From Methanobacteriota archaeon (GTDB taxonomy: Archaea > Thermoplasmatota > Poseidoniia > Poseidoniales > Thalassarchaeaceae), in assembly GCA_002713585.1 (NCBI GenBank), contig PATD01000047.1:1-39331 (forward strand): DNA of 39,331 bases, written 5' to 3'. Below the pieces are notes generated by a model. That model did no database searches. It was not told the DNA's origin and saw only the letters and a program-made list of their open reading frames with translations. A program made the position numbers and the translations under genes. Positions 10,277 to 37,230 of this stretch are shown one piece after another (positions within the stretch are counted from its first letter, which is position 1; the number at the start of each line of letters is the position of its first letter).

Positions 10277-10325
10277 CATTCCCGCGCGGTTTCGCGCCGG
10301 ATACAAACACACGGAGGAAGAAGAA

Positions 10326-10643
10326 ATGAACCCGAAATTGATGAGGAACGCACTACGAATGATGATTGTCCTGTTGGCCGTTATTGGCTTGACAGACGTG
10401 GTCGCGGCGGCCGGAGCAGATGCTGCTCTGAACGGCAGCGGCTACTCTTGGGGTATGCCCCTGGGCGCCGGGATTGCTCTCGGTCTAGCCGGTGTTGGCA
10501 CTGGTCTTAGCCAGGGTCAGATCGGTGCAGCAGCAGTCGGCATGGTCGCTGAGGACGGAGACAAGTTCGTCACAGGTCTGATCTTCACGGCACTGCCTGA
10601 GACAATTGTCCTGTTCGGTTTCCTCGCAATGTTCCTAATGTGA
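10326..10643 (+). CDS. A/V-type ATP synthase subunit K (c/proteolipid)
   Basis: 'GAGIALGLAGVGTGLSQGQIGAAAVGMVAEDGDKFVTGLIFTALPETIVLFGFLAMFLM' is a proteolipid hairpin with the ion-binding Glu. ATG at 10326 chosen over track start 10110, which lies inside the subunit I gene. Confidence 0.9.
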   Translation: MNPKLMRNALRMMIVLLAVIGLTDVVAAAGADAALNGSGYSWGMPLGAGIALGLAGVGTGLSQGQIGAAAVGMVAEDGDKFVTGLIFTALPETIVLFGFLAMFLM

Positions 10644-10696
10644 ACATCTGCGTGAACCGTTCTGAACACACTAATGCAATACATGAGGACAGTGAC

Positions 10697-11263
10697 ATGA
10701 GTCTAGAAAAACTTGCCAAGGATATCGCGGCACAGGCCGAAGCTGAGGCATCGGAGATTATCGCGGAAGCGAAGGCAGAAGCGAAGCGGATTTCCAAAGG
10801 AGCAAGCTCCGAGGTCGCCACCATTAGCTCTGATGCGATGGCTATGGCTGAGAAGCAGGCCGCTCAAATCGGTGTAGAATCTGTAGCTAGCGCTCGCCAG
10901 ACCAACCAGAAGGACATCTTGATTGCAAAGCGCGTGCAAATTGATCTGACCTACGATGCAGTGCGTGAGAAACTCGGAAGCCCGAAACTCGGCAAGCGTT
11001 CAGCAATGTTGGATTCCCTATTGAAGGATGCCAAGGCAGAAGCGAAGGGTAAGATGACTCTCCGCCCTGCAGCAATCGACCGTTCTGCTCTCGAACAGAA
11101 GGCAAGCGGCTTCACTTTGGGTGATGACGTAGAAGCGCTCGGTGGCTTTATGCTGGTATCTGACGATGGAAGTATCAGTTTGGATTACACCTTCGACTCG
11201 AAATTGAATGATGCGTGGTTGACTTCTCTTGGAGACGTCAATCGGACCCTCTTTGGAGCTTAA
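10697..11263 (+). CDS. A/V-type ATP synthase subunit E
   Basis: 'MSLEKLAKDIAAQAEAEASEIIAEAKAEAKRI' helical stalk; operon position between K and C. ATG at 10697. Confidence 0.85.
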   Translation: MSLEKLAKDIAAQAEAEASEIIAEAKAEAKRISKGASSEVATISSDAMAMAEKQAAQIGVESVASARQTNQKDILIAKRVQIDLTYDAVREKLGSPKLGKRSAMLDSLLKDAKAEAKGKMTLRPAAIDRSALEQKASGFTLGDDVEALGGFMLVSDDGSISLDYTFDSKLNDAWLTSLGDVNRTLFGA

Positions 11264-11277
11264 TCGGTGGGATCAAT

Positions 11278-12321
11278 ATGTTCGGTCGAGGAAATTGGGC
11301 TAATGCGGCGGCGCGTGCTCGCTCCCGTCGTGGACGCCTCCTTGATCGAACGCGAATTCGTCAGTTGATTAAGCAGAAACCAGATGCTATCGCAGCAAGT
11401 ATCGGAGATGCAGGCTATCGCCAGGATATCGACTTGTATGCTCACCGGCTTGCCGGTGCAGAACTCGTTGAAGCCGGGTTGAGCCACAATCTCGATCGCG
11501 AGGTACATCAAGTGCTCAAGTTCTGCCAAGGCGAACTTTCTGATATCGTCGGTGTTTGGGCTACTAAGATTGATCACAATAAGGCAAAAACAGTACTGCG
11601 GGCTGTTGATAGAGAGATTGAAACGGAGCGTCTCAGTACTAGCGCTCTACCCAAGGAGAATCCTGAGAATGCAGAATGGATTGCCATTGTTGAGGCCTCG
11701 TCGACACTTGAAGAAGCCGCATCTGCTATCTCAAAGACGGGGCTGGGGCGACGTATTTTCCGTGATATGAGTCCTGAAGCAACCCTCGCTGATTACGAGG
11801 ACGCCCTAGATCGTTCTTACTATCAGTCAGCATTGTCAGTAATCCCCAATCGTGGACCTAATGCTTCACTACGCCGATACCTCAAGATGGAAATTGCTCA
11901 CAGAGATGTTCTCAATATATTGCGGGCAATGCGTCAAGGGATTTCGTCTGAGAAACGTGCCGCCATCTTCCTCCCCGGTAGCGGACTTTCCCGCGCCACT
12001 GAGGCGGCCTTGATTCAGGCGAACAATCTCGATGATGTTCTCCAAGCAGTTCGACGCACATTATCCTTCGACGATAGTGGTCTTGAAGAGGCCCTACAGA
12101 TGTATTCAGAGTCCCGTACTATGGACCCTGTCGTTGATTTGTTCCACCACAAGAGGAGCGAACTTCTGCTTCGTTTTTCACACCTGCATCCGATCTCGGC
12201 GATGCCGATTGTATACTATATCGAGCGTAAATTGCTCGAAGTCGAGAATCTCCGTCTACTTGTGCGTGGTAAGGCGGCCGGTCTCCCTGAGCCCGTGATT
12301 GAAGCGCATTTGACATTGTGA
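11278..12321 (+). CDS. A/V-type ATP synthase subunit C
   Basis: 'NWANAAARARSRRGRLLDRTRIRQLI', 'YYIERKLLEVENLRLLVRGKAAGLPEPVIEAHL' C-terminal signature. Confidence 0.9.
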   Translation: MFGRGNWANAAARARSRRGRLLDRTRIRQLIKQKPDAIAASIGDAGYRQDIDLYAHRLAGAELVEAGLSHNLDREVHQVLKFCQGELSDIVGVWATKIDHNKAKTVLRAVDREIETERLSTSALPKENPENAEWIAIVEASSTLEEAASAISKTGLGRRIFRDMSPEATLADYEDALDRSYYQSALSVIPNRGPNASLRRYLKMEIAHRDVLNILRAMRQGISSEKRAAIFLPGSGLSRATEAALIQANNLDDVLQAVRRTLSFDDSGLEEALQMYSESRTMDPVVDLFHHKRSELLLRFSHLHPISAMPIVYYIERKLLEVENLRLLVRGKAAGLPEPVIEAHLTL

Positions 12322-12330
12322 GGATTGAAT

Positions 12331-12630
12331 ATGGAAATCGCGATTATCGGTAGCCCGGAATTCACTCTTGGATTCCAGCTTGCTGGTGTAACGCATCTCC
12401 ACAATCCCGCGGATGAGGAGGAACTTGCCTCTCTCTGCCGCTCGATGATCGCCGACAAAGACGTCGGCATTGTCGTTCTCGACTCTGGGGACCTTTCCCG
12501 ACTCCCAGAGCGAATTCGCGATGAGGTTAACCTCAGCGTGACCCCTACCTTCCTTGGTATTGGAACCGAGGAGGACAACACCCTACGGGAGTCCATTCGG
12601 AAGGCACTCGGTGTCGACCTTTGGAAGTAA
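12331..12630 (+). CDS. A/V-type ATP synthase subunit F
   Basis: 'MEIAIIGSPEFTLGFQLAGV', 'DVGIVVLDSGDLSRLPERIRDEV', 'ESIRKALGVDLWK'; operon position. TTG 12325 is an alternative start. Confidence 0.9.
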   Translation: MEIAIIGSPEFTLGFQLAGVTHLHNPADEEELASLCRSMIADKDVGIVVLDSGDLSRLPERIRDEVNLSVTPTFLGIGTEEDNTLRESIRKALGVDLWK

Positions 12631-12654
12631 TAAAAAAAAACGGAAGTGAAAGAA

Positions 12655-14397
12655 ATGAGCAATAATGAAGGCGTCATCTACCGAATTTCAGGACCTGTCG
12701 TGACTGCGACAGGGATCGATGCAAGAATGTACGAAGTGGTTCGAGTTGGCCATGAGAAATTGATGGGGGAAGTTATCGAGATACATGGTGAACAATCCGT
12801 CATTCAAGTGTATGAGGACACCTCGGGTATTCGTCCAGGCGAGCCCGTTCTCAGCACTGGTCAGACACTCTCGGTCCAGTTGGGCCCGGGTCTGCTGACC
12901 TCTATCTATGACGGAATCCAACGTCCTCTTCAGACTCTGGAAGAAGTCATGGGTGTATTCATCACTCGTGGTGTAGATGCCGATGGACTCGACCTTGAGA
13001 AGAAGTGGGACTTCGTTGCTACTGCTTCTGCGGGTGATGAGGTCGTTGGTGGGCAGATTATTGGTACCGTCCAAGAAACGGAAACCATCACTCACAAGAT
13101 CATGGTGCCTCCAAAGGCTTCTGGGACAATCAAGAACATCGATAGTGGCGAGTTTACAGTGACCGAGACTGTGTGCACCCTTGACGATGGCACTGAGATT
13201 CAGATGATGCAGGAATGGCCTGTTCGTCATCCTCGCCCTTACACTCAGAAGTACGCACCAGATACACCACTTGTTACTGGTATGCGTATCCTTGACTTCC
13301 TTTTCCCACTCGCTAAGGGCGGTGCAGCAGGAATCCCCGGTCCGTTTGGTTCGGGCAAGACGGTAACTCAGCAGTCTCTTGCGAAGTACTCCGATGCACA
13401 ACTTGTGGTCTACATCGGTTGTGGTGAGCGCGGAAATGAAATGACTGAAGTGCTAGACGAATTCCCTGGACTCATCGATCCAAATACTGGCAAGCCACTG
13501 ATGAACAGGACCGTTATGATTGCAAATACCTCAAACATGCCAGTGGCTGCCCGCGAAGCATCTGTTTACACAGGAATTACGATTGCCGAGTATTTCCGTG
13601 ATCAAGGATACGACGTTGCTCTCATGGCTGATTCCACCAGTCGATGGGCAGAAGCCATGCGTGAGATTTCCAGTCGTCTTGAGGAGATGCCTGGTGAGGA
13701 AGGATACCCTGCGTATCTGTCTAGCCGCCTAGCGGAATTCTACGAGCGTGCTGGTCGTGTTGAGACTCTCAATGGCGACGATGGGTCCGTCACTGTCATT
13801 GGTGCCGTGTCCCCTCCTGGTGGTGACATCTCTGAGCCGGTTAGCCAAGGTACTTTGCGAATTGTGAAGGTTTTCTGGGGACTAGACGCTGGTCTTGCTC
13901 GGAAGCGTCACTTCCCCGCAATTAACTGGCTCAACTCCTACTCTCTATACCCGCAGAGTCTGAATCAGTGGTTCCGTGATAATATTGCAAGCGACTTCCC
14001 GGAGGTCCGAACTGAGATTAGTGCCTTGTTGAAGGTTGAAGCAGAACTCCAAGAAATTGTACAGCTCGTCGGTTCTGACGCACTGCCTATCGATCAGCAA
14101 CTCACTCTCGAGGTTGCCCGTATGATCCGCGAGTACTTCCTACAGCAGAATGGGTTCGACCCAGTCGACGCTTACAGCGGCGTCGAACAGCAATACGCGA
14201 TGGCCAAGGCCATCCTAACCTTCCAGGACGAGGCGAAGAAGGCCATGGCTGCCGGTGCCCGCCTTCAGGACGTTGTGAACGTCCCAGCGCGAACTGAACT
14301 TATGCGAGCTCGATTCGCAGAAGGTTACTTGGAGAGTATTGGAGGCCTTGTCGACGACATGGTCGGTGAAATCACTGGCACGGTGGAGGCCAACTGA
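12655..14397 (+). CDS. atpA: A/V-type ATP synthase catalytic subunit A
   Basis: '[15 protein letters not shown]', P-loop '[43 protein letters not shown]', '[43 protein letters not shown]'. GTG 12646 is an alternative start. No intein. Confidence 0.97.
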
Positions 14398-14411
14398 AGG
14401 AGGGATCGTGA

Positions 14412-15788
14412 ATGACTAGCAAGGAATACAAGACAATCACAGACATCAAGGGACCATTGGTGTTCCTAGAAAAGACCGAACCAGTCGCCTATGGCGAGAT
14501 CGTGACGATTCGTCTGAGCGATGGTTCGATGAAGAACGGCCAAGTGCTCGATACTTCAGATGACGCGGTCATCGTGCAGGTATTCGAAGGCACAGAAGCA
14601 ATCGATAGACAGGCAGGAGTCAAGTTCCTTGGCGATGTCTTCAAGCTCCCTGTGAGCCGGGACCTTGTCGGGCGAATCCTCGATGGTGCAGGGCGCCCTC
14701 GTGATGGCGGCCCAGATATCGTAGCAGAAGAGAAGGCAGACATTATCGGTGCGGCAATCAACCCGTACTCGCGTCAGTCTCCTCACGACTTCATTCAGAC
14801 CGGCGTCAGTGCAATTGACTGTTGTACCACGCTTGTCCGTGGTCAGAAGCTCCCGATCTTCAGTGCATCCGGTCTCCCGCACAACGACATTGCTCTCCAG
14901 ATTGCTCGTCAGGCGAAGCTCAAGGATAGCGATGAGGAGTTCATTGTAGTATTCTGCGCGATGGGTATTACTGCGGAGGAGTATAACTTCTTCAGAACGG
15001 ATCTTGAGCGCACCGGTGCTCTAGAGAATGCAGTTCTTTTCGTCAATCTCGCTGACGACCCTGCAGTCGAGCGGCTGATTACGCCGCGTCTAGCGTTGAC
15101 TGCGGCCGAGTATCTCGCATTCGAGCACGACTATCACGTGCTGGTTATCTACACGGACATGACGAACTACTGTGATTCACTACGTCAGATTGGTGCTGCT
15201 CGTGAAGAGGTTCCAGGTCGACGTGGTTATCCAGGATACATGTACACTGACCTTGCAATGCTCTATGAGCGTGCAGGAATCGTGAAGGGCAAGAAGGGAA
15301 GCATCACACAATTCCCAATTCTAACGATGCCCGGTGACGACATCACGCACCCAATTCCTGACCTCTCCGGTTACATTACTGAGGGTCAGATTGTGATTTC
15401 CCGTGAATTGCATCAGGCCGGTATCTATCCGCCAATCAACGTCTTACCTTCGCTTTCCCGGCTCATGGGTGGTTGCATTGGTGAGAAGACGACCAGAGAT
15501 GACCACAAGAAGGTCAGCGATCAGATGTACGCTGCTTATGCAGAAGGACGCGAACTACGTGGACTCGTAGCGATTGTAGGCGAGGATGCCCTCAACGAGC
15601 GTGATTTGCAACTGCTGAAGTTCTCTGATATCTTTGAAGACAAGTTCCTGCGTCAGGATCGTGACGAGGATCGGACGATTGACGAAACTCTGGATCTATG
15701 TTGGAATCTCATGTCGAGTATCGATGAGAAGTACCTTGTGCGACTGGATCGCGAACTCATCGACAAGTATGGTCAGCACACAGAATGA
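14412..15788 (+). CDS. atpB: A/V-type ATP synthase subunit B
   Basis: '[40 protein letters not shown]', '[43 protein letters not shown]'. Confidence 0.97.
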
Positions 15789-22519: not shown

Positions 22520-25500
22520 TTGCATCTGAAGCGAATCGAATTAGAGAATTTCAAGTCCTTTATGGGCGAGTTGACGATTGATCTCGAACAGGGATTCACC
22601 GCAATAACTGGCCCAAACGGGTCAGGGAAATCGAATAGCGGTGATGCAATACAGTTTGTTCTTGGGACTCGCTCCACCAAGTCATTACGTGCCCAGAATG
22701 TCAAGGAATTGATCTTTAATGGAGGTGGGCGCGCCAAGCCTGCACGCCATTGCAAGGTAACTCTAACCTTCGCGAACCCTGTGAATGACAAGGGCTCAAG
22801 ACGCCTCAAGGTAGATGGGGACGAGGTCCGATTTACTCGGGCGGTTCGCCTGAATAGCAAGGACAAGGCAGTGTCCGACTACCGTCTGAATGATGCTCCC
22901 TCTTCAAGTACCGAGTTTCGGCGCCTCTTGATTGAAGCCGGCGCTCGAGGGGATGGGTACAATATCGTACTCCAGGGTGATGTGACTAATCTTGCGAGCA
23001 TGTCTGCACTTGAACGCCGGCGTGTCCTTGAAGACGTCGCAGGGGTCACACAGTATGATGATGAACTCAAGAAGGCAGACCGCCAGAGGAAACAGGTTGA
23101 ATCTCAACTGGAAATGATCGAGGTCTTTGAGGCAGAGCAGACGCGTCGCGTAGAGTCTCTGGAGAAAGAGCGTGAAGATGCACTCAAGTTCCGTACCTTG
23201 ATGGAAGATTTGCAGACTTCCCGCTCCTTGCTGATGCAGGCGAAGCACCGTTCAAACTTCGAAGAGATCAGGATGTTAGGGGACGAGAAATCACGCTACA
23301 TCGAGTCATCTGAGGAGTTGAAGGACGAGTGTGAACGTTCAGAATTGCGAATCCAAGAGCTTGACGACGAGATTGTACGCCTTCAGAAGGAGATGGAGGC
23401 TCTTCTCGGGACGGATCAGCGTGGCACTATGGAGCGTATCCGGAAACTGGAGTTACAAGTTGATCGCGCAAGTGATCGAGTCAGTGAATTGGATTCAACT
23501 TCCGAGAAATCCCTCATTGAGGCGAAGACCCTCTCTAAGGAAATCAAGCGTGCTCGAGATGCTGTCGAGAGCAACCTGAAAGTAATCGATGAGGCGACAG
23601 AGAGCCTCAAGAGTGCGAAGGCAGCGATGGCTGCTGCCAAGAAAGAAGAATCCGATGCAAGGAAGGCTATGGAGCAAGGGGATCGTGCCACGATGGACCT
23701 TAATCGAGCCTATGGAAAGGCATCTGAAGAGGTAACTCGTCTCGCAGATCGACTCCAAGTTAGTACACTTGAGATGGAACGTGCACGGCAAGCAGCGGAT
23801 ATTTCTCATGGGCGGCTCGCAGACCTCCAAGAATCTCTCCAAGATGCTGAGATGGAAGTTAACGATCTAGATTTAACCCTCGAGGAAATGGATGTTGTCG
23901 ATAGTGCAGAAGAACGAACTCGTCTCGGTGAGGAACTACGCCGCTTAGATAACCAGCAAACGACCCTTCAACGTGAGGAGGGGCGTGCTCGAGCCAATAG
24001 GAACGAGGCAGAGCGAGCCCTCGTCCGAGCTCAGCAGCAGATGGAGAGTCGCTCGGGACGTTCATCAAATCAGGCGCAAGCTGTGGCGGCCATCTGCGCG
24101 ATTCGCGACAGCGGGGGTATCGAAGGCATCCTTGGTCCACTTAACGAACTCTGTTGTCCAAAGGACGACGCACACGCTCTCGCTCTATCTTATGCTCTAG
24201 GCGGCGGGATGAACCACATAGTCGTCGAGAATGACGAGGTTGCAACCCAATGTATTCGTCGCCTCAAGGCGGATCGGCTGGGTCGCGCGGTATTCCTGCC
24301 TCTCAACAAGATGCAGGTTCGTCGTGCTGGCGGACGTTCTCTGATGGTCTCTCGGCAACCTGGTATCGTCGGCTTTGCTGCCGACCTTCTCGAATTCGAT
24401 GAGTCGATTGAGAATGCTGTGCGAAACGCCGTTCGTGATACTCTAATCGTACAGAATATGGAGATTGCAAGGAAGAATATGGGCGGTGTGCGAATGGTTA
24501 CTGTCGATGGTTCAGTATTCGAAGCATCTGGGGCGATGGTTGGTGGAGCTAGTAAGGCGCCATCAGCAACCTTTGGTGGCGGTAAAACCCCTGGGTTATC
24601 TGCCGTTGAGAAGGCACAAGTCGCCCTTTCTGAGGCCGAACTTGTCCTGATGACAGTGACCAGTGCTTTGGAGGAAAACAGGCTCTCTCAGACGACGATT
24701 CGTGAAAAGATGTCTCAGGTTTCTGATATTGATGGTAGTTTACGTCTCCGCGAGGTGAAGGCCGATTTACAACGTGCTCGAAATCTCCAGAAGGACCTGA
24801 TCAATCAGGTGAAAGCAGCGGAGAAGGACCTCGCGCACCAATCTAAGGCCCTTGAGAAGGTCGAGTCAGGCGCCGCAGCAGCTGAGGCAGCTCGAGATTC
24901 CTCGGTTGATGAGCGTGACCGCCTCCTAGAACAACTTCGTTCCCAGACGCCAGAGCATCTTGCGAAGCGTTTGCGTGATGCGGAGACACAGTACACTGAG
25001 TCATCTCGGAAAGCACTTGCATCGGAGTCTACCCTCACCACTGGCAAGGAACGTCTGAGCATGATGGGGGACGAGGTTGACAAGCTTGAAGCACGCAAGA
25101 AGGAGGCTGAAGAGACATCCAAGAACAGTATCTCTGAGATTGAGCAGATTAAAGCCGACAGTGTTGGATGGGTTAGCGAACTCGATGAACTCAAGGAAGC
25201 ACACAGTCAGGTGAGCGAAGAGCACCGTGAATTGGACGTACTTCGGACATCTCACTTTGAGGAGCGTGCAACGCTAAAGGCTCAAGTGGATGCGATGGGC
25301 TCTAAGAGAGTCACAATCATGACTCGGATAACTGAACTGAACACTGAGATCGATCGCAAGCACATCGCACTGAAGAATCTCGTTGATGAGATGGCGGAGA
25401 ATGAAATTTCCATACCTGCAGAGCACGAGGCTATCCCCGCCTTTACCGAGATTGAGACTAAGGTCCGCAATCTCGAACGCCGTGTCTCTAACATGGGCAG

Positions 25501-26458
25501 CGTCAACTTACTTGCTATCGAGCAATACGATGAAGCAGCCTCCCGTGTCGCTCAACTTCAAGCTGATGCGAATGCACTCCGTGAGCGTCGTGAGCGACTT
25601 CTTGCAATTGCTGATCAGTTGGAGATGGAGCGTAGGACACGTCTGACCGATGTCCTTGACCGTGTATCTGCGAACTTTAGCCGTGTTTACCGAATCCTAC
25701 AGCCAGGTGGTGCCGGAGATTTACGTCTTGAGAATCCAGAGGATCCGTTTTCTGGAGGCCTCCAGATGTGGGCGAAGCCGCCTGGAAAGAGCAACCAAAT
25801 CGAACTCCATCTGTTATCCGGTGGAGAGAAGTCGATGGCCGCACTTGCCCTCATATTTGCGATACAGGACTTTGAGCCATCGCCGTTTTACTACTTTGAT
25901 GAAGTCGATCAGAATCTTGATTCCTTCAATGCAGAGAGCATTGCTCAACTTTGCCGCCTTCGAAGCGAGCGTGCCCAGTTCCTCATGGTCACGCTACGCA
26001 AGGTTAGTCTGCAGTTGGCAGATCATCACATCGGTGTCACTCATGGTGGTGATGGGTGCAGTCGCCTAATCATGAACTTTGATCGCGATGCAGCAGTTGA
26101 ACTCGGAGAGGCTGCAGAGCGTGAACGTGAAGCACAAGAAGCGGCTCAAGCCGAGATGGAAGGTCTTGAGGAACTTCCGAGGCTGGAGGATCGCCCCAGG
26201 GTTCCAGAGGCATTACCCACGCCCGAGAGCCTTGGAGGTATCCGTGAGGACGGGGCTGAAGTGGAAGCGACTGAAGTGGCGCCTCCAGAGGTTGATTCTC
26301 AAGCGGCCAGCATCGCCCATCTCGGTGATCGTGCAGCCGATACTAAGGAAGATCTTGATGAGCGTCTTGAATGGGAGAATCGCCTCGAAGAATCTATTGC
26401 ATCAGAATCAGAGGATATTGAATCCGAGATTACGGAAGAATCGGATATTGAGGAGTGA
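22520..26458 (+). CDS. smc: Chromosome segregation protein SMC
   Basis: 'LKRIELENFKSFMGELTIDL', Walker A 'GPNGSGKSNSGDAIQFVLG', long coiled coils, hinge region, 'LLSGGEKSMAALALIFAIQDFEPSPFYYFDEVDQNLDSFN'. TTG start with GAGGTGA upstream. Confidence 0.96.
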   Translation: MHLKRIELENFKSFMGELTIDLEQGFTAITGPNGSGKSNSGDAIQFVLGTRSTKSLRAQNVKELIFNGGGRAKPARHCKVTLTFANPVNDKGSRRLKVDGDEVRFTRAVRLNSKDKAVSDYRLNDAPSSSTEFRRLLIEAGARGDGYNIVLQGDVTNLASMSALERRRVLEDVAGVTQYDDELKKADRQRKQVESQLEMIEVFEAEQTRRVESLEKEREDALKFRTLMEDLQTSRSLLMQAKHRSNFEEIRMLGDEKSRYIESSEELKDECERSELRIQELDDEIVRLQKEMEALLGTDQRGTMERIRKLELQVDRASDRVSELDSTSEKSLIEAKTLSKEIKRARDAVESNLKVIDEATESLKSAKAAMAAAKKEESDARKAMEQGDRATMDLNRAYGKASEEVTRLADRLQVSTLEMERARQAADISHGRLADLQESLQDAEMEVNDLDLTLEEMDVVDSAEERTRLGEELRRLDNQQTTLQREEGRARANRNEAERALVRAQQQMESRSGRSSNQAQAVAAICAIRDSGGIEGILGPLNELCCPKDDAHALALSYALGGGMNHIVVENDEVATQCIRRLKADRLGRAVFLPLNKMQVRRAGGRSLMVSRQPGIVGFAADLLEFDESIENAVRNAVRDTLIVQNMEIARKNMGGVRMVTVDGSVFEASGAMVGGASKAPSATFGGGKTPGLSAVEKAQVALSEAELVLMTVTSALEENRLSQTTIREKMSQVSDIDGSLRLREVKADLQRARNLQKDLINQVKAAEKDLAHQSKALEKVESGAAAAEAARDSSVDERDRLLEQLRSQTPEHLAKRLRDAETQYTESSRKALASESTLTTGKERLSMMGDEVDKLEARKKEAEETSKNSISEIEQIKADSVGWVSELDELKEAHSQVSEEHRELDVLRTSHFEERATLKAQVDAMGSKRVTIMTRITELNTEIDRKHIALKNLVDEMAENEISIPAEHEAIPAFTEIETKVRNLERRVSNMGSVNLLAIEQYDEAASRVAQLQADANALRERRERLLAIADQLEMERRTRLTDVLDRVSANFSRVYRILQPGGAGDLRLENPEDPFSGGLQMWAKPPGKSNQIELHLLSGGEKSMAALALIFAIQDFEPSPFYYFDEVDQNLDSFNAESIAQLCRLRSERAQFLMVTLRKVSLQLADHHIGVTHGGDGCSRLIMNFDRDAAVELGEAAEREREAQEAAQAEMEGLEELPRLEDRPRVPEALPTPESLGGIREDGAEVEATEVAPPEVDSQAASIAHLGDRAADTKEDLDERLEWENRLEESIASESEDIESEITEESDIEE

Positions 26459-27480
26459 GGTGGTTCTCCGTGGAACCTCTTGTCTCACATGATTTGCGTG
26501 CTGATATTGTCACACGTCTTCTGGGTGGCGAGGAGGATGCGGATGCGATTCCGTTTATCGATCGCCTAGTCGAGATTGCGGAGATGGAGAACGGAGAGCA
26601 TCAGATGCTTGTAGACCCAATCGATCGATCGATAGCCCTAGTTTTCGAGTTATTCCAATCCGAGTCTCTTGATCCATGGGATGTTGATTTGACGATGTTC
26701 ATTGATCTGTTCGGGGAACGAATCGAGACAGCCGAGAATATCGATTTGCCTAGTTGTGGCCGCCTTATTCGTATGGCTTGGAACATCCTCCACGCCCAGA
26801 CATTTTCTCTGATTGAGCGACATGAAAACTGGGAGGATGAGGTTGATGACGATGATTGGATGTCAGATATTGGCTGGGAGGCGGATTTTGACGATAATGA
26901 GTATGGATTCTCAGTCAATGTTCTGACAGGCCGGGCTAAGGATGCCCTCCCTGGTCTTTTCCAGGGTCGTATTCGTAGAACTACTGAATCACGGCCAGTC
27001 ACACTTTCTGAGATGCTATTCTCACTCAAAGCCGCGCATGACCAGGCTGAGGATCGCCGATTAAGGGAGGCCGCTCGGATTCGTCATCAGGCGGACGTCG
27101 AGGAGGCCATGGCGAACGTATCATCGAGGATGCACCGTGAGAACCTAGAGGAGGATATACAGCGTTGCTGGTCAGCCTTACGAAAACTTGGGAGAGGTGG
27201 TGCGCCCGTTGAACTTGCTGATGTTCGCACCTACCTTTCCTCACTTGCCATCGAAGAGGGTGCATCGGAAGACGAAGCTGAAGCCGAGGGCGAGATTTCT
27301 GGATTTGTCGCATCCCTATTCCTTACTCATCGTGGATTCGCGGAAATATGGCAGATGGGTGAAGCGACTCAGGGTCGTATTTTCCTTCGGGATCGCTGGC
27401 CGAAAGTTGAGACGTTCGATGAAGCATGTGTCGCTATCGCTCATGAGCGTGGTATTACTCTTGAAGAGGTGGAGGCGTGA
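26455..27480 (+). CDS. scpA: Segregation and condensation protein A
   Basis: 'DRSIALVFELFQSESLDPWDVDLTMFIDLFGERI' matches the ScpA N-terminus; start overlaps the smc stop. Confidence 0.87.
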   Translation: MRWFSVEPLVSHDLRADIVTRLLGGEEDADAIPFIDRLVEIAEMENGEHQMLVDPIDRSIALVFELFQSESLDPWDVDLTMFIDLFGERIETAENIDLPSCGRLIRMAWNILHAQTFSLIERHENWEDEVDDDDWMSDIGWEADFDDNEYGFSVNVLTGRAKDALPGLFQGRIRRTTESRPVTLSEMLFSLKAAHDQAEDRRLREAARIRHQADVEEAMANVSSRMHRENLEEDIQRCWSALRKLGRGGAPVELADVRTYLSSLAIEEGASEDEAEAEGEISGFVASLFLTHRGFAEIWQMGEATQGRIFLRDRWPKVETFDEACVAIAHERGITLEEVEA

Positions 27481-28097
27481 CTGATCCGTCCATCGAATCT
27501 ATCGTAGAAGCATTGTTGTTCTGCTCTGGTCGATCCTTGAAGTCCTCCGAGATATCTGAGCAGTCAGGACATCCTGAATCAGTGGTCGTTGAGTCTCTTG
27601 TGACGCTTCAGAGCCAGTATCGTCGTAGACGGGACAGCGCTCTTTCAATTGTCGAGGTTGGAGGTCGGTGGTCCATGGAAGTCCATCCACGCCTCTCAGC
27701 ACATCTACCGAGTGAGCTTCGTGGTGATATTCCAGACAGACTTCAACGTGCTGCTGCTCTAATTGCATATCATCAGCCCATGATGCAGAGTGATCTAGTC
27801 CAGATGATGGGGCCTATTGCCTATGACTACGTCCGTGCATTAGCACGTCTTGGCTTAGTCGATCGCCGTAGACAAGGTAATTCTCGTCGTTTGCGGACAA
27901 CTCGTTACTTCGCTGAGCGTTTTCAATGCCCTCACACTGAACCAAAGAAGGTTCGAGAGTGGTTTAGGGGCCAAGCAGAGGCTTCAGGTATTACTTCGCA
28001 GAATCTTGTTGACTCAATTAGGGAACTTGACCCCGATGTGGGGGACATGGATTTCGTTCCGGAATCCGATGGCACAGAGGAAGACATCGAAGATTAG
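27477..28097 (+). CDS. scpB: Segregation and condensation protein B
   Basis: 'SIVEALLFCSGRSLKSSEISEQSGHPESVV...LSIVEVGGRWSMEVHP...LQRAAALIAYHQPMMQSDLVQMMG...YVRALARLGLVDRRRQGNSRRLRTT'. GTGA overlap with scpA. Confidence 0.88.
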   Translation: MTDPSIESIVEALLFCSGRSLKSSEISEQSGHPESVVVESLVTLQSQYRRRRDSALSIVEVGGRWSMEVHPRLSAHLPSELRGDIPDRLQRAAALIAYHQPMMQSDLVQMMGPIAYDYVRALARLGLVDRRRQGNSRRLRTTRYFAERFQCPHTEPKKVREWFRGQAEASGITSQNLVDSIRELDPDVGDMDFVPESDGTEEDIED

Positions 28098-29422
28098 ATT
28101 TGACGATGTGTATCTAGCATCATGTCTACCAAGGATTGTGTGATGGGGCCTCCGTGATTGCGGACCGCATCTGCAACAGCGTCTATTTCGCCTCCATTTG
28201 CTCCCGCAGAGATTACCATGTTTCGAAGATGAAGGCGCATGTGGCCTTCTTGAATCCCTTTCGTAGCTAAAGCGCGCATCGCACCGAGGTTTTGTGCTAA
28301 TCCTGCACATGCCATCAGAGATGCTAGATCTTGGGATCCGTCTACATCTGCTAATCTCAAATTCAATCGCGCGACTGGATGTACTTTCGAGGCGCCACCA
28401 ACGGTCCCAACGGCCAGGGGTATCTCGATTGAACCGTTAATCCAACCATCTCCGTCAACCCACCAACGAGTCATGGAACGGTATCTCCCACTCAGAGCGG
28501 CATAGGCATGGGCTCCTGCTTCGATAGCCCTCCAATCTTGCCCACAGGCTACTCCAATGGCAGAAACAGCGTTCATGATGCCTTTGTTGTGTGTTGCTGC
28601 ACGCCAGGGGTCGGCGTCAGCGAATTCGTAGGCGAGGATGACATCCTCGATGATTCTGTGCCCCTCCTCTGTATCTCCTTTACTGGAGATTGCCTCGGGC
28701 GAGAGTCGAACCGTTGCCCGTGCAAGCCGTTCAGTCGCGAGATTCGATAGGATGCGGAGAAGTACACGCCCTCCTGTGATTGATTCAAACCAGGGCGCCG
28801 CTCTCTCAGCCATGGTATTAACTGCATTTGCACCCATTGCGTCTCTTGTATCGACGACTAGGTGGACGATGAGCATCGTTTGCGACGTTGTTTCTAGTGT
28901 TCTACAGCGTATGTCTTTGCAACCGCCTCCGAGTCTAATCATGGTGGATTCAATGTCGTTGCATCTTTCGATGATACTAATCTTTTCAGATTCGATGGCC
29001 TCGATGGCTGCGGGGATGTCATCAACATCGAGAATCTGGAGTTGGCCGATCATCATAGGCGGATCCATCTTAGTTTGAAATCCTCCGCAGGGATGGGCAC
29101 GTTTTGCGATATTACTTGCAGCGGCGACTATGCTGGATTCTTCAACGCAGAAGGGGATTAGTCGAGGTATCCCGTTAACGAGAAAGTTCATTCCAATGCC
29201 TACGGGTAGCGAATATCGGCCTACGACGTTCTCAATCATCCGGTCAGCTGTATCTGCGTTCATCGAATCAGGATCTGACCATGCGGACATCTCCTCGAGT
29301 CCTATCCCTGTATAATCTGCTATGATTTTCCGTCGTTCATCTATATCTAGTGCGTAGAACCCACTAATCCGACTATCGTCCACTGGCATTGTCTCGCCCC
29401 ATTCCATCCGAAATCGGGGCAT
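28094..29422 (-). CDS. Hydroxymethylglutaryl-CoA reductase, class II-like
   Basis: 'DERRKIIADYTGI', 'VGIGMNFLVNG', 'EESSIVAAASNIAK', 'VDTRDAMGANAVNTMAE', 'THNKGIMNAVSAI', 'GHMRLHLRNMVISAGANG'. ATG at 29422 (MPRFRM) or 29389 (MPVDDS); track start is 29503. Confidence 0.9.
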   Translation of the reverse strand: MPRFRMEWGETMPVDDSRISGFYALDIDERRKIIADYTGIGLEEMSAWSDPDSMNADTADRMIENVVGRYSLPVGIGMNFLVNGIPRLIPFCVEESSIVAAASNIAKRAHPCGGFQTKMDPPMMIGQLQILDVDDIPAAIEAIESEKISIIERCNDIESTMIRLGGGCKDIRCRTLETTSQTMLIVHLVVDTRDAMGANAVNTMAERAAPWFESITGGRVLLRILSNLATERLARATVRLSPEAISSKGDTEEGHRIIEDVILAYEFADADPWRAATHNKGIMNAVSAIGVACGQDWRAIEAGAHAYAALSGRYRSMTRWWVDGDGWINGSIEIPLAVGTVGGASKVHPVARLNLRLADVDGSQDLASLMACAGLAQNLGAMRALATKGIQEGHMRLHLRNMVISAGANGGEIDAVADAVRNHGGPITQSLVDMMLDTHRQI

Positions 29423-29485
29423 CCTATGTCCCTTGCCCATGCAAAGGTGTGGAGGGATTGGCCTTGGAATGGTGCTATTCACGGG

Positions 29486-29512
29486 ATTAACGCGTTTATT
29501 CAAAGCGTTAAT
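29486..29512. repeat. Inverted repeat ATTAACGC-(g)TTT-attc-AAA-GCGTTAAT
   Basis: Perfect 8-bp arms with an inner 3-bp pairing and 4-nt loop, in the divergent intergenic region. Confidence 0.8.
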
Positions 29513-29602
29513 TTCCGTTATTTCCTGCTAATCATAAATCATATATTGCCTCTCAGTTCTCGTTTTATCACTCTGGCTACGTAGAAAATCATTGAGAAAT
29601 GC

Positions 29603-29629
29603 GTGAATGTTCTGTGAATTTGTGTGAAT
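29603..29629 (+). repeat. Three phased GTGAAT direct repeats (29603, 29614, 29624)
   Basis: Read directly; spacing 11 and 10 bp, ending 2 nt before a TTTATAT TATA-like box. Confidence 0.85.
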
Positions 29630-29631
29630 TG

Positions 29632-29639
29632 TTTATATC
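29632..29639 (+). promoter_or_regulatory. Putative TATA box (TTTATATC) for the ORC-like operon
   Basis: Centre about 25 nt upstream of ATG 29660. Confidence 0.5.
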
Positions 29640-29659: not shown

Positions 29660-31786
29660 ATGGTTGGTGCAACAAGGCTCCCTACAGGTCCAACCATTCG
29701 TTCAGACCCATTCGTACTACGTGCCCTGAACAACTCTCAACAGAGTATGTTGGTCGGCCGCCAGGAGGTAGCCTCTATCATCATCGATCAAATGACTCAT
29801 GGGATGCCTGCTATCCACCTAATAGTGGGTCCAAGTGGTTCAGGGCGGACTAGCCTGTTGAATTGTCTGGCTCCCGAGGATTCACGACATATTGGAAATA
29901 TCTGGAATGAGGAAACGAAGACCACGGGCGTCATTCACGAGGCGGTTGCCAAATTCACGAATCAATTCCAGATTCCTCCAACACCCCAGTCTGCTGCCGA
30001 TTACTTGCGGCGCCATCTGGAGGATCGAACGGGTAATCTAGACCTCATAGCCTTCGATTACCCATACATCCCGACCTCTGACCTCTTTGCAATTGTTCAG
30101 AATATTGTTCCAGCACTACGCACGATGAGGGCTATGACTGTAGTATCCATGAGTGATGACCAATATCGCGATCTTGGCCGTTCAATTGAGACGTCATTCG
30201 ACATGGTTCACCATCTTCGTCCATTGTCTTTGGAAGAGACTAGGATTTTAGTCGATTTGAGAATGACTTCAGTATCTAATCAGACCATCCTCGAGCAGGG
30301 CGACGGGATATCACGCCTACATTCCTATACCGGCGGCAATCCAAAAGAGATAGTTCGTCAATGTGGGTTGCATTTAGGCCATCTGAGGTTTCCTGATCGG
30401 AATCCACAGGCCCCGTTCATGGACCTGCAACTCCCAATCACTTCCCCGATGCAGTCTAGCTCTGAGAACCCCCATTCTTCTAGCAGCCGTATGGGGTCCC
30501 GGCCTGAGCCTCCACGCCCTCTTTTCCCAGCCACAACAGTTCTTCCAGTTCAAGCAGGTCCTCCTTCATCTCATGATGTGTTTGATGACGGTTATGACGC
30601 TTGGTTTGCTGATTCCAAGGTCGCAAATCAGTTTACAGAATCCATTGAATCGAATCAGATGGATGTATCATCGGTTGATATTGAGGATGATAATCGCCCA
30701 CTCTTCGAATCTGTCGAGGACGACTCTCATGGTGACATAGGATTCGATCCGGAGGTGATTCACATTGCGAATCAAGACGAGGTCCACGATTTTGATGACA
30801 GCCAGGTACTGTATCTTGAAACGGATGAAATGGAACCGGAAACTCCGAATCTGTTAGATCAGGGAGGTGAGATGTTTGATGACTCGGATAGAATATTGGA
30901 TTCCAATGACATGGAACTCGGGTCATTGGATACAGAACCTGTATCTGATATTCAGACCGTTGACCAGTATTTGGAAACTGATGTAACTATTCGTTCTGAA
31001 CCAATTGAATTCGAGCCATCATCTGATTTCGAATTACTGGAGCCAGAAATCACTCCTCAGGAAGATATTGTGAATGTTCCTGGGCGGCCTCGTAGCGGAA
31101 TTTCAGGGCTTGCAGATAGGATGCGAGAGACCAATATACGAATGGATCTCGCTCCGCAGGCTCCTCAAACGGAGATTATCGAAGCTATTGATTGGGGACC
31201 TGAAGAGAAATCTAAGAATGATTCTCCGCCCTCTCTAGATCCTCCTGAATCGCCACCTGTCGCGGATGCTAGGCCTCAAATGCGGACTATTGATCCAATG
31301 ACTTCTAGGCCCCCTGATATCGATCGGGAGGGCGCTCAACTCTGGATGGACCCTAGTTTGACCCCCCTATCTCCTCCTCCTGCTGTTCCAGATTACTCGC
31401 CTGCTCCTACCCCCGCCCCCGAGGAATACGTGCCTCATGAGGCTCCAGTAGGGGAAAATCGTCCGGTTTTCAATGCTAAAAGGGTCATAGATGGAATTCA
31501 TGCCTTCAGAAAGGTCCGTTGGGAACAAGATATGCCATTGGATCCTACGCGCCTGAAAACGATGTCTGAAGCAGATGTCCAGATTTTAACTGCAGCTGCT
31601 GAGCGTGAGGTATCTCCATCGGACATAGCATTGCAGGCTCGTCTCCAAGTGGGTCGTTCTCGCTTATCTCAGAGATTCAATGATTTACGTCGCACGGGTT
31701 ACCTATCCGTTCGAACAGAAGGGCGAAGCCGTTACTATCGGCTGACAGAGGCTGCATCCTGCCTCTTCTCAGAGGTGAATGAATGA
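29660..31786 (+). CDS. ORC1/Cdc6-like AAA-family protein with Walker A Lys to Arg, long acidic/Pro-rich linker and C-terminal winged helix
   Basis: 'MLVGRQEVASIIIDQMTHGMPAIHLIVGPSGSGRTSLLNCL', 'LDLIAFDYPYIPTSDLF', 'SYTGGNPKEIVRQ'; C-term 'SDIALQARLQVGRSRLSQRFNDLRRTGYLSVRTEGRSRYYRLTEAA'. ATG 29660 preferred over track GTG 29624. Confidence 0.65.
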   Translation: MVGATRLPTGPTIRSDPFVLRALNNSQQSMLVGRQEVASIIIDQMTHGMPAIHLIVGPSGSGRTSLLNCLAPEDSRHIGNIWNEETKTTGVIHEAVAKFTNQFQIPPTPQSAADYLRRHLEDRTGNLDLIAFDYPYIPTSDLFAIVQNIVPALRTMRAMTVVSMSDDQYRDLGRSIETSFDMVHHLRPLSLEETRILVDLRMTSVSNQTILEQGDGISRLHSYTGGNPKEIVRQCGLHLGHLRFPDRNPQAPFMDLQLPITSPMQSSSENPHSSSSRMGSRPEPPRPLFPATTVLPVQAGPPSSHDVFDDGYDAWFADSKVANQFTESIESNQMDVSSVDIEDDNRPLFESVEDDSHGDIGFDPEVIHIANQDEVHDFDDSQVLYLETDEMEPETPNLLDQGGEMFDDSDRILDSNDMELGSLDTEPVSDIQTVDQYLETDVTIRSEPIEFEPSSDFELLEPEITPQEDIVNVPGRPRSGISGLADRMRETNIRMDLAPQAPQTEIIEAIDWGPEEKSKNDSPPSLDPPESPPVADARPQMRTIDPMTSRPPDIDREGAQLWMDPSLTPLSPPPAVPDYSPAPTPAPEEYVPHEAPVGENRPVFNAKRVIDGIHAFRKVRWEQDMPLDPTRLKTMSEADVQILTAAAEREVSPSDIALQARLQVGRSRLSQRFNDLRRTGYLSVRTEGRSRYYRLTEAASCLFSEVNE

Positions 31787-32814
31787 GCGATTGGCAAGTC
31801 ATTTGGAGTCATCAGGTCGAAGGTCCAGTCAACGATGTTAACGTTGATGAGCATGGAGCCCTCGTTGCTTCGGGTCAGACATTGTTCTCACTCCGAACCG
31901 ATGGGAGCCTCCATTGGAGGTCTGACCAGATTTTTGATGTATATTCGATTGAGGTTGCCGGTTCCTCAGTCGCGATACTTACAGGGACATCAATCCATGT
32001 CCTCGATAGACACAGCGGTCGTCCGCTTAGTGATGGAAGAAGTATCCCCGGCGGTTATCGGCAGGGTCTCTCTAGGCCTGGAGGTGGTTGGGTTGCCTCC
32101 GATCGAGGCGACCATCTCCACGTCTTCAGGCCAAACGGCCGTGGTATACGCCGTCTACGAGTTGGGTCAATGCGCAGATTGATTGGATGGTTAGACCGGG
32201 AGCATCTTCTCATGCTTGATCTCGATGGAGCATTACGTTGTGTTCGTTTGCATGGAGAGCATGCGCAGCGACGTATAGAGGATCGTCGTTGGATGTGGTG
32301 CAGTTCACTGGAACGAGGCCGGCTACTCCTGCTCGATGTTGAAGGTGCGTTACATGAGGGTGTGCCGAATCCCTTTGGATGGGATGAGCTTGATCGTATC
32401 TCAGATGGTGACATTGAGCCATACCGGGCTGTTCGTTGTATGGACGGATGGTGGTCGATGGATCTCGAAGGTAGGGTCCGGCATGCATTGGAGGCCAATC
32501 ACCTTGGGTTTGGTGATGACGTAGTCGATCATCTCTCATCGGATGGAGCCGGCAGCATACTGACCGCTACGAAGGAGGGTTTGCTCCGTTGGAGTGTAGC
32601 GCCAGGCATCAGTGGCCTTCGAGCAGAAGGCCGTCGTTCACAGGAAGAAGAGGAACGTCGTCGTCTGGATTGGCTTCAGCGATCTACCATGTTTGAATCC
32701 GCACAACAGGCGGAGGACGAAGGTTTGTGGTCACGTGCATTGGAACTCTATAGGGCACTGGGTAGAGAAGAGGATGTGCGCAGGATTCTCGGACTTCAGG
32801 AGGGGAGTGATTAA
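31783..32814 (+). CDS. Beta-propeller (WD40/PQQ-like) protein with C-terminal helical region
   Basis: Repeated beta-rich units ('GALVASGQTLFSLRTDGSLHWRS', 'GGGWVASDRGDHLHVFRPNGRGIRRLRV', 'DREHLLMLDLDGALRCVRLHG'). C-term helices 'QAEDEGLWSRALELYRALGREEDVRRIL'. ATGA overlap with the upstream gene. Confidence 0.6.
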   Translation: MSDWQVIWSHQVEGPVNDVNVDEHGALVASGQTLFSLRTDGSLHWRSDQIFDVYSIEVAGSSVAILTGTSIHVLDRHSGRPLSDGRSIPGGYRQGLSRPGGGWVASDRGDHLHVFRPNGRGIRRLRVGSMRRLIGWLDREHLLMLDLDGALRCVRLHGEHAQRRIEDRRWMWCSSLERGRLLLLDVEGALHEGVPNPFGWDELDRISDGDIEPYRAVRCMDGWWSMDLEGRVRHALEANHLGFGDDVVDHLSSDGAGSILTATKEGLLRWSVAPGISGLRAEGRRSQEEEERRRLDWLQRSTMFESAQQAEDEGLWSRALELYRALGREEDVRRILGLQEGSD

Positions 32815-33101
32815 TGGAGGCGTTAACCGTTGAACGTGTCCAAGAAGCGATGGCTATCACTGATGCTGCACGGGCCAAGGCGACGCCACTCGTTGTTCCG
32901 GGAAGTCATGATGAGGAACGTCTGAATGACATGCTTCGGATGTGTGATGATTACCGTAAGGACGCCTCACATTTTCTTGAGGCAGGAGATCTTGTTCGTG
33001 CCTTTGGTGCGATATACTACGCTCATGCTTGGGTGGACGCAGGTGTGAGGATTGGATGGCTGGATGGGCATGGTGACGATGAGCTATTTACGCTACCATA
33101 A
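32814..33101 (+). CDS. DUF357-like small helical protein
   Basis: 'RLNDMLRMCDDYRKDASHFLEAGDLVRAFGAIYYAHAWVDAGVRIGWL' resembles archaeal DUF357. TAATG overlap with the propeller gene. Confidence 0.65.
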   Translation: MEALTVERVQEAMAITDAARAKATPLVVPGSHDEERLNDMLRMCDDYRKDASHFLEAGDLVRAFGAIYYAHAWVDAGVRIGWLDGHGDDELFTLP

Positions 33102-33833
33102 TCACTGTTTTTCTGGTGCTATAATTTCTGATGGTTTAGGACGATTTGCGTTGAAAGAATTTATTTTTTCATTGCTTGGATAACCAAGGCAAATCCCGCA
33201 AAGTAATGAGTAATTTTTACTGATTTCAAACTCCTTGCGAACCGCATCTTCCCAAACTGCAACTGCGCCTTGTGGACATGTACCCAATCCTTTCGAATGA
33301 GCTGAAAGTATCAGGTTCTGCATGAATAACCCTGCATCAGAGGCTGAATATTTGCCTAATGATTTGTGTGTGAAAATAAACAACTCTACAGGTGCTCCAA
33401 AGAAATCATAATTCCTAGCCCAAGATTCATCACGGGCGTTTTTATCATCTCTGTCAATCCCAATAAATGAGAAAAAATCCTTGCCTTGATTTTTTGACCT
33501 ATTGACCAAATCTTTGTGATAGGGTCTCGTAATTATCCAATTACTCGTCGGTAATCCCTTTCGTTTAAGGACGGCTTTGATCTTTCCAAAAAAGCTATTT
33601 CGAGCATCTTTTATTGCCTCCCATCTTGAAAGGAAATCTTTCGAAAGTCGATCACGCACATCGCCTTTTGCAACGGCTACCTGAATGGGTCTAGTGTTAC
33701 TCCAACTAGGCGATGTGAGTCCATCAGTAATTATTTCTTCAATTATTTCATCAGAAACTGGAGTAGGTAAAAAATCACGTGTTGAACGGCGTGATGATAC
33801 AAATTCTTGAAAATTATTAGAATCAAAATCCAT
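33102..33833 (-). CDS. Nitroreductase family protein
   Basis: 'FQEFVSSRRSTRDFLPTPVSDEIIEEIITDGLTSPSWSNTRPIQVAVAKG', 'GLFMQNLILSAHSKGLGTCPQGA', 'LLCGICLGYP'. Confidence 0.85.
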   Translation of the reverse strand: MDFDSNNFQEFVSSRRSTRDFLPTPVSDEIIEEIITDGLTSPSWSNTRPIQVAVAKGDVRDRLSKDFLSRWEAIKDARNSFFGKIKAVLKRKGLPTSNWIITRPYHKDLVNRSKNQGKDFFSFIGIDRDDKNARDESWARNYDFFGAPVELFIFTHKSLGKYSASDAGLFMQNLILSAHSKGLGTCPQGAVAVWEDAVRKEFEISKNYSLLCGICLGYPSNEKINSFNANRPKPSEIIAPEKQ

Positions 33834-36045: not shown

Positions 36046-37230
36046 TCAATTAGCCTTTACATCCCGATTTAGTTCTTGTTCCAATCGTTTCTCTATGGTC
36101 GCGGGAAGGATGTTCATGGCCCGAATCAATGTGGTTCGACCGCGTCCCTGTAGGGCGTTTCCTGTCTGTGTTGAGACAAAGCCAATCTCCTCAAGTCGCT
36201 TGATATAACCCCAGAAGGAAGTATGTCCTCTCCTCTCCTTGTCGAATTCTTCGCATACAACATGGTAGAGTTTCTCCGCATCTCCGCTTGTCACAGTATC
36301 GGCTCTCCTTAGGCGACGGCACAGAGCAAGCAAAGCCATCTTCTGTTGGTCGGTGAGTCCATCGACCATATCTGGTTCAATACTAGCTGAAAGGCGAGTA
36401 CTGGGTTGAATGTCCTCGATAGTTATCTCGTTACGCCCCTCCTTCTCGGCTCTTCTGATGGAACTTTGGAGTAATTCGATGGCGTGTCGGGCGTCTCCTG
36501 TGCCAGCCGCGTAGCCGGAGATTCGAGATAGTGCCTCATCTGGGATACTACCTGGACGGCATGAAGCGGCGGATCTCTGTGTTACAATGGCGTGGAGCCC
36601 TTTCTCATCATAGGAGTCGAGGCGGACGCGATTACTTTGTCCGAATCTAGACTTGACGGCGGCTTCAAAGAGATGTACAATTGGTTCTTGACTTACAAGA
36701 ATCAGAGATAATGTTCCTGATTCATTGCGCCCCTCATCGATTCGGAGTAACTGATAGAGTAGATCATCCCCTTCCCTTAGCAGGAGAACACTGACTTCGT
36801 CGAGGACAAGTAGCATGTGACGTTCTGAACTGATTAGATTCCTCCTGATGCTCTGGATAATCTCACCTGGACTGAATCCCCGTTCAGGATGTCCGTGGTC
36901 TAATTGATGAGCGATTCGTTGTAGGACTTGAGAAGTTGTAGGGTGATTTCGACAGTTGATGTGGACTGGTTGTATTCTCCTCCTTCCATCTAAGTGTCTC
37001 ATTAGGTCCTCTGAGAATCTGCGCACAAGTACGGTTTTACCACTACCTACAGGGCCGGTGACTATCGCACATCCACTAGATTGTGCAGCGTCAATTCCGA
37101 GGAACATAGAGGCTAAATCTCCCAGTTGCTCGTCCCGGCCCACTAACTCTTGAGGAATCCAGTCAAACGATAGAGGGTTAGGGTCGAGCAGAATCTTACC
37201 TGCTCCAATCCGGTCTAGATAGTCCGCCAT
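36046..37230 (-). CDS. cdc6: Orc1/Cdc6 replication initiator ATPase
   Basis: 'ELVGRDEQLGDLASMF', Walker A 'GPVGSGKTVLVRRF', 'HINCRNHPTTSQVLQRIAHQL', Walker B 'MLLVLDEVSVLL', 'GTGDARHAIELLQSSIRRAEKEGRNEIT', C-terminal winged helix. Confidence 0.92.
   Translation of the reverse strand: MADYLDRIGAGKILLDPNPLSFDWIPQELVGRDEQLGDLASMFLGIDAAQSSGCAIVTGPVGSGKTVLVRRFSEDLMRHLDGRRRIQPVHINCRNHPTTSQVLQRIAHQLDHGHPERGFSPGEIIQSIRRNLISSERHMLLVLDEVSVLLLREGDDLLYQLLRIDEGRNESGTLSLILVSQEPIVHLFEAAVKSRFGQSNRVRLDSYDEKGLHAIVTQRSAASCRPGSIPDEALSRISGYAAGTGDARHAIELLQSSIRRAEKEGRNEITIEDIQPSTRLSASIEPDMVDGLTDQQKMALLALCRRLRRADTVTSGDAEKLYHVVCEEFDKERRGHTSFWGYIKRLEEIGFVSTQTGNALQGRGRTTLIRAMNILPATIEKRLEQELNRDVKAN

Follow-up and report, generated by a model that had tools for sequence, protein, structure and literature searches.

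A lineage-specific operon of Candidatus Poseidoniales encoding a predicted ORC-like ATPase, a beta-propeller protein and a DUF357 protein beside a phased repeat array

Several described systems resemble parts of the locus reported here. At the centromere of plasmid R1 (parC/ParR), repeats of about 11 bp lie in the par promoter, and the archaeal AspA-ParB-ParA partition set provides a further lead. Archaeal Orc1/Cdc6 proteins (PF13401/PF22703/PF09079) combine an AAA+ core and lid, a P-loop and a C-terminal winged helix, and are encoded beside repeat clusters. Repeats adjoining initiator genes have precedents, among them Sulfolobus oriC3, where the winged-helix initiator WhiP is encoded beside its own origin (PMC4010727). 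The DUF357 family has been ranked among the top-priority uncharacterised archaeal proteins (PMC6393860). In this work, three overlapping genes, here called P1, P2 and P3, were analysed in a stretch of 39,331 nucleotides (contig PATD01000047.1 of assembly GCA_002713585.1), the whole of which is referred to as the window, from an archaeon of the Thalassarchaeaceae in the order Poseidoniales. An earlier note on this DNA had described them as a coupled module. The three genes form one lineage-specific operon of Candidatus Poseidoniales (Marine Group II), and the phased repeat array newly found in the gap between P1 and the HMG-CoA reductase (HMGR) gene makes the finding of the trio stronger than first described. 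The genes are as follows.

29660..31786, forward strand: P1, 708 aa, ATG at 29660 to TGA at 31786, predicted ORC-clade AAA+ domain, acidic disordered arm and ArsR-type winged helix
31783..32814, forward strand: P2, 343 aa, ATG at 31783 to TAA at 32814, predicted beta-propeller with a three-helix C-terminal tail
32814..33101, forward strand: P3, 95 aa, ATG at 32814, DUF357 (PF04010, arCOG01224)

According to the sequence and its open reading frames, P1 and P2 share ATGA (31783-31786) and P2 and P3 share TAATG (32812-32816), exactly as the earlier note had given them, and these overlaps are kept in relatives. The note had also made its claim depend on the co-occurrence of the three genes in relatives, and they do co-occur. 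Among whole-genome loci, 25 carry all three genes, always in the order P1-P2-P3; the P1-P2 overlap measures 4 or 1 bp in 21 of these, and the P2-P3 junction ranges from -8 to +8 bp. In addition, 80 P2-centred loci from public genomes have P1 upstream and P3 downstream wherever the contig does not end first. These overlaps exceed chance. All three proteins are under purifying selection, as the ratios of nonsynonymous to synonymous substitution rates (dN/dS) against the nearest relative are low, with 0.08 for the AAA+ domain, 0.21 for the arm, 0.06 for the winged helix, 0.04 for P2 and 0.07 for P3, at a dS near saturation. A TATA-like TTTATAT at 29632-29638, about 22-28 bp 5' of the P1 ATG, is kept across the genus. 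Its position supports 29660 as the start of P1 and, being this close to the ATG, suggests a leaderless mRNA for the operon.

Within the libraries and literature searched, the trio appears to be undescribed as a set. No family or defence-system match in the Pfam and PADLOC searches spans all three genes, in line with the earlier statement that no named system of this composition was known. A defence system was rejected as an explanation, since PADLOC gave only weak winged-helix and P-loop matches to the trio genes, and a viral origin was rejected as no relative of P1 was found in IMG/VR.

Within the phylum sample, P1 and P2 were found only in the order. P1 is present in 37 of its 39 genomes, two of which were assigned by a short P-loop match alone, and P3 in 33 of 39, with the absences mostly in incomplete genomes. 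Most P1 orthologues outside the genus are only 17-28% identical to the P1 of the window. Elsewhere in the phylum sample, the P1 and P2 profiles matched only P-loop-sized or short scraps and no relatives. When 84,980 species genomes were searched with P2, 181 matches were obtained; the titles of the best 80 name Poseidoniales or are consistent with this order, and the best propeller relatives carry titles such as Thalassarchaeaceae and Poseidonia. DUF357 is nearly universal in the rest of the phylum sample, where 28 DUF357 loci had neither P1 nor P2 adjoining it. Of two other Thermoplasmatota genomes (loci L077 6256-8219 and L075 507-8297), one has DUF357 after S6e and eIF2-gamma and one has it some 3 kb away from SMC-ScpA, each arrangement being seen once. 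With one genome each, these are too few to build on.

The domains and motifs of P1 were delimited as follows.

29690..30427, forward strand: AAA+ domain, residues 11-256, from the alignment of 29 orthologues, AlphaFold (predicted local distance difference test, pLDDT, about 90) and hhalign
29828-29854, forward strand: Walker A, G57-S65, with the glycines and S65 invariant in the 29 orthologues
30056-30058, forward strand: Walker B, with D133 invariant and the following Glu absent
30428..31474, forward strand: disordered arm, residues 257-605, with 14% proline, a net charge of about -55 and pLDDT mostly below 50
31106..31150, forward strand: linear motif GLxxR in the arm, with R487 invariant and a predicted helix at residues 483-497
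31475..31777, forward strand: winged helix, residues 606-706, from alignment and AlphaFold

The AAA+ core and lid of P1 are homologous to those of Orc1/Cdc6 according to hhalign and Foldseek. Against the neighbouring Orc1/Cdc6, hhalign gave a probability of 95.6% and an E-value of 1.1e-8 over 217 columns from the P-loop to the lid at 17% identity, and the nearest structures found by Foldseek are replication factor C (RFC) small subunits, the Aeropyrum Orc1 and metazoan origin recognition complex (ORC) proteins. Judged by these matches, P1 is a degenerate ORC-like ATPase, sharing with Orc1/Cdc6 the core and lid, the P-loop, a C-terminal winged helix and a gene position beside a repeat cluster. 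Unlike Orc1/Cdc6, it has a disordered arm of about 350 residues and lacks both the Walker B Glu, which never follows D133 in the 29 aligned orthologues, and a conserved Arg at the arginine-finger position of the same alignment. Since, in addition, its winged helix is not of the Cdc6 type, P1 was not filed as Orc1/Cdc6. The earlier note had called P1 a DNA-binding, ORC-like pseudo-ATPase. The ORC relationship and the missing Glu bear this out, but Walker A is invariant, so that ATP binding is probably kept and the term is better read as probably hydrolysis-impaired; the winged helix, moreover, is ArsR-like rather than ORC-like. A likeness also exists to the archaeal STAND-like AAA ATPases (AAA_16, ATPase_2; PDB 2FNA, 2QEN), which are among the Foldseek neighbours. 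AAA_16 is matched by all 29 orthologues; in contrast to these ATPases, the P1 of the window stays below the curated cut-offs and has a separate winged helix and arm.

The disorder of the arm, already noticed from the letters, is seen in the model as well, and its composition recurs in all P1 orthologues. The winged helix belongs to the best-conserved parts of P1, with an invariant SPSD, a recognition helix R666-x-R668-x-S670-Q671 (RxRxSQ) and a wing G688-R689-x-R691 (GRxR). Its match to ArsR/SmtB has an E-value of 4e-6 and 26.5 bits, which is under the curated cut-off of 55 bits. Compared with Orc1/Cdc6, the winged-helix profile gave a probability of 0.8% and could not be aligned with the winged helix of Cdc6, and only 2 of 29 P1 members matched Cdc6_C (best E-value 0.015). 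By sequence, the domain is probably ArsR-like and is not of the Cdc6 type. P1 resembles WhiP in being a predicted DNA-binding protein with a winged helix whose gene adjoins a candidate locus without origin recognition boxes (ORBs) (PMC4010727); unlike WhiP, P1 is an AAA+ protein.

For P2, AlphaFold (pLDDT 88) and Foldseek agree with the propeller and helical tail of the first description, whose quoted tail sequence is present in the protein. The model comprises a beta-propeller (residues 1-272) and three C-terminal helices (276-342). Because the model is confident and the Foldseek matches are diverse propellers at 10-16% identity, the predicted fold can be regarded as safe, while it does not give a function. 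Assignment to a named propeller family failed, with no Pfam match over the cut-off and no PDB sequence match. P3 had been described as a small DUF357-like protein, which is right in its relationship and understated in its degree. With an E-value of 1.2e-18 and 67.3 bits against a cut-off of 29.4 over residues 15-82, P3 is by sequence a full and genuine member of the pan-archaeal DUF357 family (arCOG01224), and PDB 2OO2 and 2PMR are sequence relatives. Elsewhere, this family has been linked to DUF555 and a TagD-type cytidylyltransferase, not to an AAA+/propeller pair (PMC6393860). A lineage-specific docking motif in the tail of P3 was considered and rejected, as other Thermoplasmatota share the LFTL-type tail.

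Upstream of P1, the HMGR-P1 gap of relatives contains (G)CGTTAA repeats in both orientations. In the window, two elements were located.

29487..29520, no strand assigned: array core, TTAACGCG...GCGTTAA...CGTTA, with sites at 29488, 29506 and 29516
29603..29638, forward strand: three phased GTGAA repeats at 29603, 29614 and 29624, abutting the TATA-like TTTATAT at 29632-29638

The motif was noticed while the P1 promoter was being examined and was then tested on the same genomes. For this reason, the shuffle figures describe the strength of the array and are not a blind test, and more weight belongs to the positions of the matches across whole genomes. In 70 nonredundant HMGR-P1 regions, 450 CGTTA/TAACG sites were counted compared to 58.4 expected from first-order shuffles, with 2-9 sites per region (median 7) and at least three sites in 69. 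Distances between sites on the same strand peak at 11, 21-22, 31, 42 and 53 bp, which places the sites on one helical face. In many members of a second family, two divergent blocks meet at TAACGCGTTA. When 24 whole Poseidoniales genomes were searched for three spaced CGTTA, 26 matches were obtained in 16 genomes. Of these, 25 lie 108-181 bp upstream of P1 and the remaining one at G019:C3:16893-16917. The arrays of the other eight genomes, including that of the window, are sparser or of mixed orientation and escape this pattern. With a composite fitted to the genus, a single match was obtained in the genome of the window, at 29487-29520, and two relatives have it at the corresponding position. 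In CM001443, of which 1.2 Mb were sampled, the array is the top cluster. Outside the order, 30 related genomes yielded only scattered matches, no more than a reversed-pattern control. Thus, the array is helically phased and essentially the only one per genome.

The GTGAA repeats are partly conserved in five genus members and may be variants of the GCGTTAA site. The gap has a mean GC content of 42.9% in the 70 regions and is AT-richer than its coding surroundings; in the window it has 41% compared to 50% for the window as a whole, a comparison with the entire window and not with other intergenic stretches. Special single-strand folding of the array region was rejected (z -0.28, nothing notable).

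The array and the operon lie in a fixed neighbourhood of SMC, ScpA, ScpB, HMGR on the opposite strand, the trio, PIN, eIF2-gamma, S6e and Orc1/Cdc6. The position beside chromosome and translation genes pointed out earlier is therefore conserved. Its main members in the window are listed here.

22520..28097, forward strand: SMC, ScpA and ScpB, of which SMC and ScpB were identified by Pfam and ScpA by position and synteny only
28094..29440, reverse strand: HMG-CoA reductase, divergent from P1 across the repeat array
36046..37230, reverse strand: Orc1/Cdc6 paralogue with AAA_22, Cdc6_lid and Cdc6_C matches, one of two per genome

As synteny extends all the way from SMC to Orc1, the adjacency of the three genes says little by itself about joint function, and they could be mere neighbours inherited together in a rarely rearranged region. 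The different neighbours of DUF357 in other Thermoplasmatota would fit this, as would the loss of P2, which is missing in seven genera of the window's family. On the other hand, the coding overlaps are kept despite the low identity of most P1 orthologues outside the genus, P1 and P3 close up to -14 to +11 bp where P2 is absent, and the trio stays intact in two genera in which the last block of the neighbourhood (PIN-eIF2-gamma-S6e-orc1) is inverted. Mere inherited synteny is for these reasons considered unlikely.

A nitroreductase-family gene at 33102-33833 on the reverse strand has a GC content of 38%, compared to 50% for the window, and is missing between P3 and PIN in a close relative (G003, L031) and in the other loci compared. 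Owing to both features, it is probably a recent insertion. The genes of an A-type ATP synthase are located at 8063-15785 of the window; in the related Methanomassiliicoccales, such genes have been reported close to the putative origin (PMC4153887).

Because P1 adjoins the array, shares its restriction to the order and has a conserved DNA-binding domain, it is the most likely protein to bind it. The explanation we consider best, at roughly even chances, is that P1 forms oligomers on its own array, thereby autoregulating the operon and marking one locus. P1 would be an ATP-binding, probably non-hydrolysing ORC-clade AAA+ protein contacting DNA through its ArsR-type winged helix. Its molecules would line up cooperatively on one helix face along the (G)CGTTAA array, with the ATP-bound AAA+ domain driving multimerisation and partners being held by the long acidic arm and the conserved GLxxR helix in it. 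P3, as the more constant partner, and usually P2, as an accessory propeller scaffold, would dock on this nucleoprotein. The latter would regulate its own promoter and, since the array is essentially the sole one in the genome, mark a single chromosomal locus beside SMC-ScpAB and the Orc1/Cdc6 paralogue.

Whether such a complex would do more than regulate transcription can be judged from its setting. The array could be only an operator. P1 would then be a large, autoregulated protein controlling transcription of its own operon and perhaps that of the divergent HMGR gene of the mevalonate pathway, without any chromosome-level role. An ArsR-type winged helix, phased GTGAA repeats abutting the TATA box of P1, a single target site per genome and the divergent arrangement of HMGR and P1 in the loci that reach that far are all in agreement with this. 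However, seven phased sites, the median, are a large number for an operator, a local repressor would not usually combine an ORC-clade AAA+ domain and a long arm with a propeller and a DUF357 protein, the link between P1 and HMGR may be one of position only, and the surroundings are rich in chromosome genes. This alternative is a serious one, although we place it somewhat below even. Within the preferred explanation of P1 oligomers on the array, a replicator-initiator or partition-like role is somewhat favoured over transcription alone. A chromosome role is supported by the relationship to ORC, the constant presence of SMC-ScpAB and Orc1/Cdc6 nearby, and the essentially single-site array. In its most specific form, a lineage-specific replicator or centromere consisting of a single phased GCGTTAA array bound by P1 together with the propeller and the DUF357 protein, this is put forward only tentatively. 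The likeness to par systems lies in phased short repeats in the promoter region of the operon, a putatively DNA-bound winged-helix-turn-helix protein and an NTPase encoded in the operon. In contrast to these systems, the locus is chromosomal and neither a ParA/ParM-type NTPase nor a ParR fold was found in the trio. Repeats and a DNA-binding-type NTPase are present, with no ParA/ParM family among the matches listed.

Another candidate reader of the array is the Orc1/Cdc6 paralogue about 6.5 kb away. This protein could read the array as a second origin of replication or as a centromere-like site, with P1 as an accessory or bystander, since origins in archaea consist of clustered repeats close to initiator genes (PMC4010727), the neighbourhood is conserved and the gap, at about 43% GC, is AT-richer than its coding surroundings. 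Each Poseidoniales genome has two divergent Orc1/Cdc6 copies, and the single match in each of three sister-lineage genomes scores like the other copy; the copy in the window may thus be an order-specific paralogue. Nevertheless, the array abuts P1 and not orc1, remains with P1 in the genera where the orc1 block is inverted, and its repeats are not ORB-like, nor does the skew give a consistent signal. We therefore regard a site read by Orc1/Cdc6 as improbable.

Several observations weigh against the preferred explanation or are neutral towards a chromosome role. The flanks of six genomes show no GC skew turn at the array and no consistent sign change; in CM001443, the curve is noisy, with a weak minimum near 660-680 kb and the array at 694.9 kb, and GC/AT skew was rejected as proof of an origin. 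An ORB search of the window produced three two-mismatch matches, which is at chance level. In CM001443 (G024; 1824164) and in a second genome (G026:C9:36788), the other Orc1/Cdc6 copy has an ORB-like motif at a distance of about 5.4 kb, which suggests a candidate conventional origin near that copy in these two genomes. For the Methanomassiliicoccales, a putative origin has been reported at orc1/cdc6.1 (PMC4153887). Furthermore, an ordinary operator would be expected in a promoter region between divergent genes, such as the one holding the array, the Orc1/Cdc6 paralogue or another protein could bind it, and P2 is dispensable in seven genera, so the trio is not obligate. The early hint at a chromosome or replication-linked function gains weight from the phased array adjoining P1. 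Due to the weak skew, the lack of an ORB excess in the window and these motifs, the chromosome-level role is held between tentative and evenly balanced, and the site is not called an origin.

The order Poseidoniales ranks with the most abundant archaea in sunlit ocean waters. As we know of no cultured member, their chromosome biology is known from sequence only. An ORC-related protein of a DNA-binding type together with an essentially single-site phased array provides a testable candidate for the marking of an origin or segregation site in this order. P1 and P2 also give the uncharacterised DUF357 a set of candidate partners, and if the array and its proteins are indeed a replicator or centromere, this would offer a functional setting for a pan-archaeal family.

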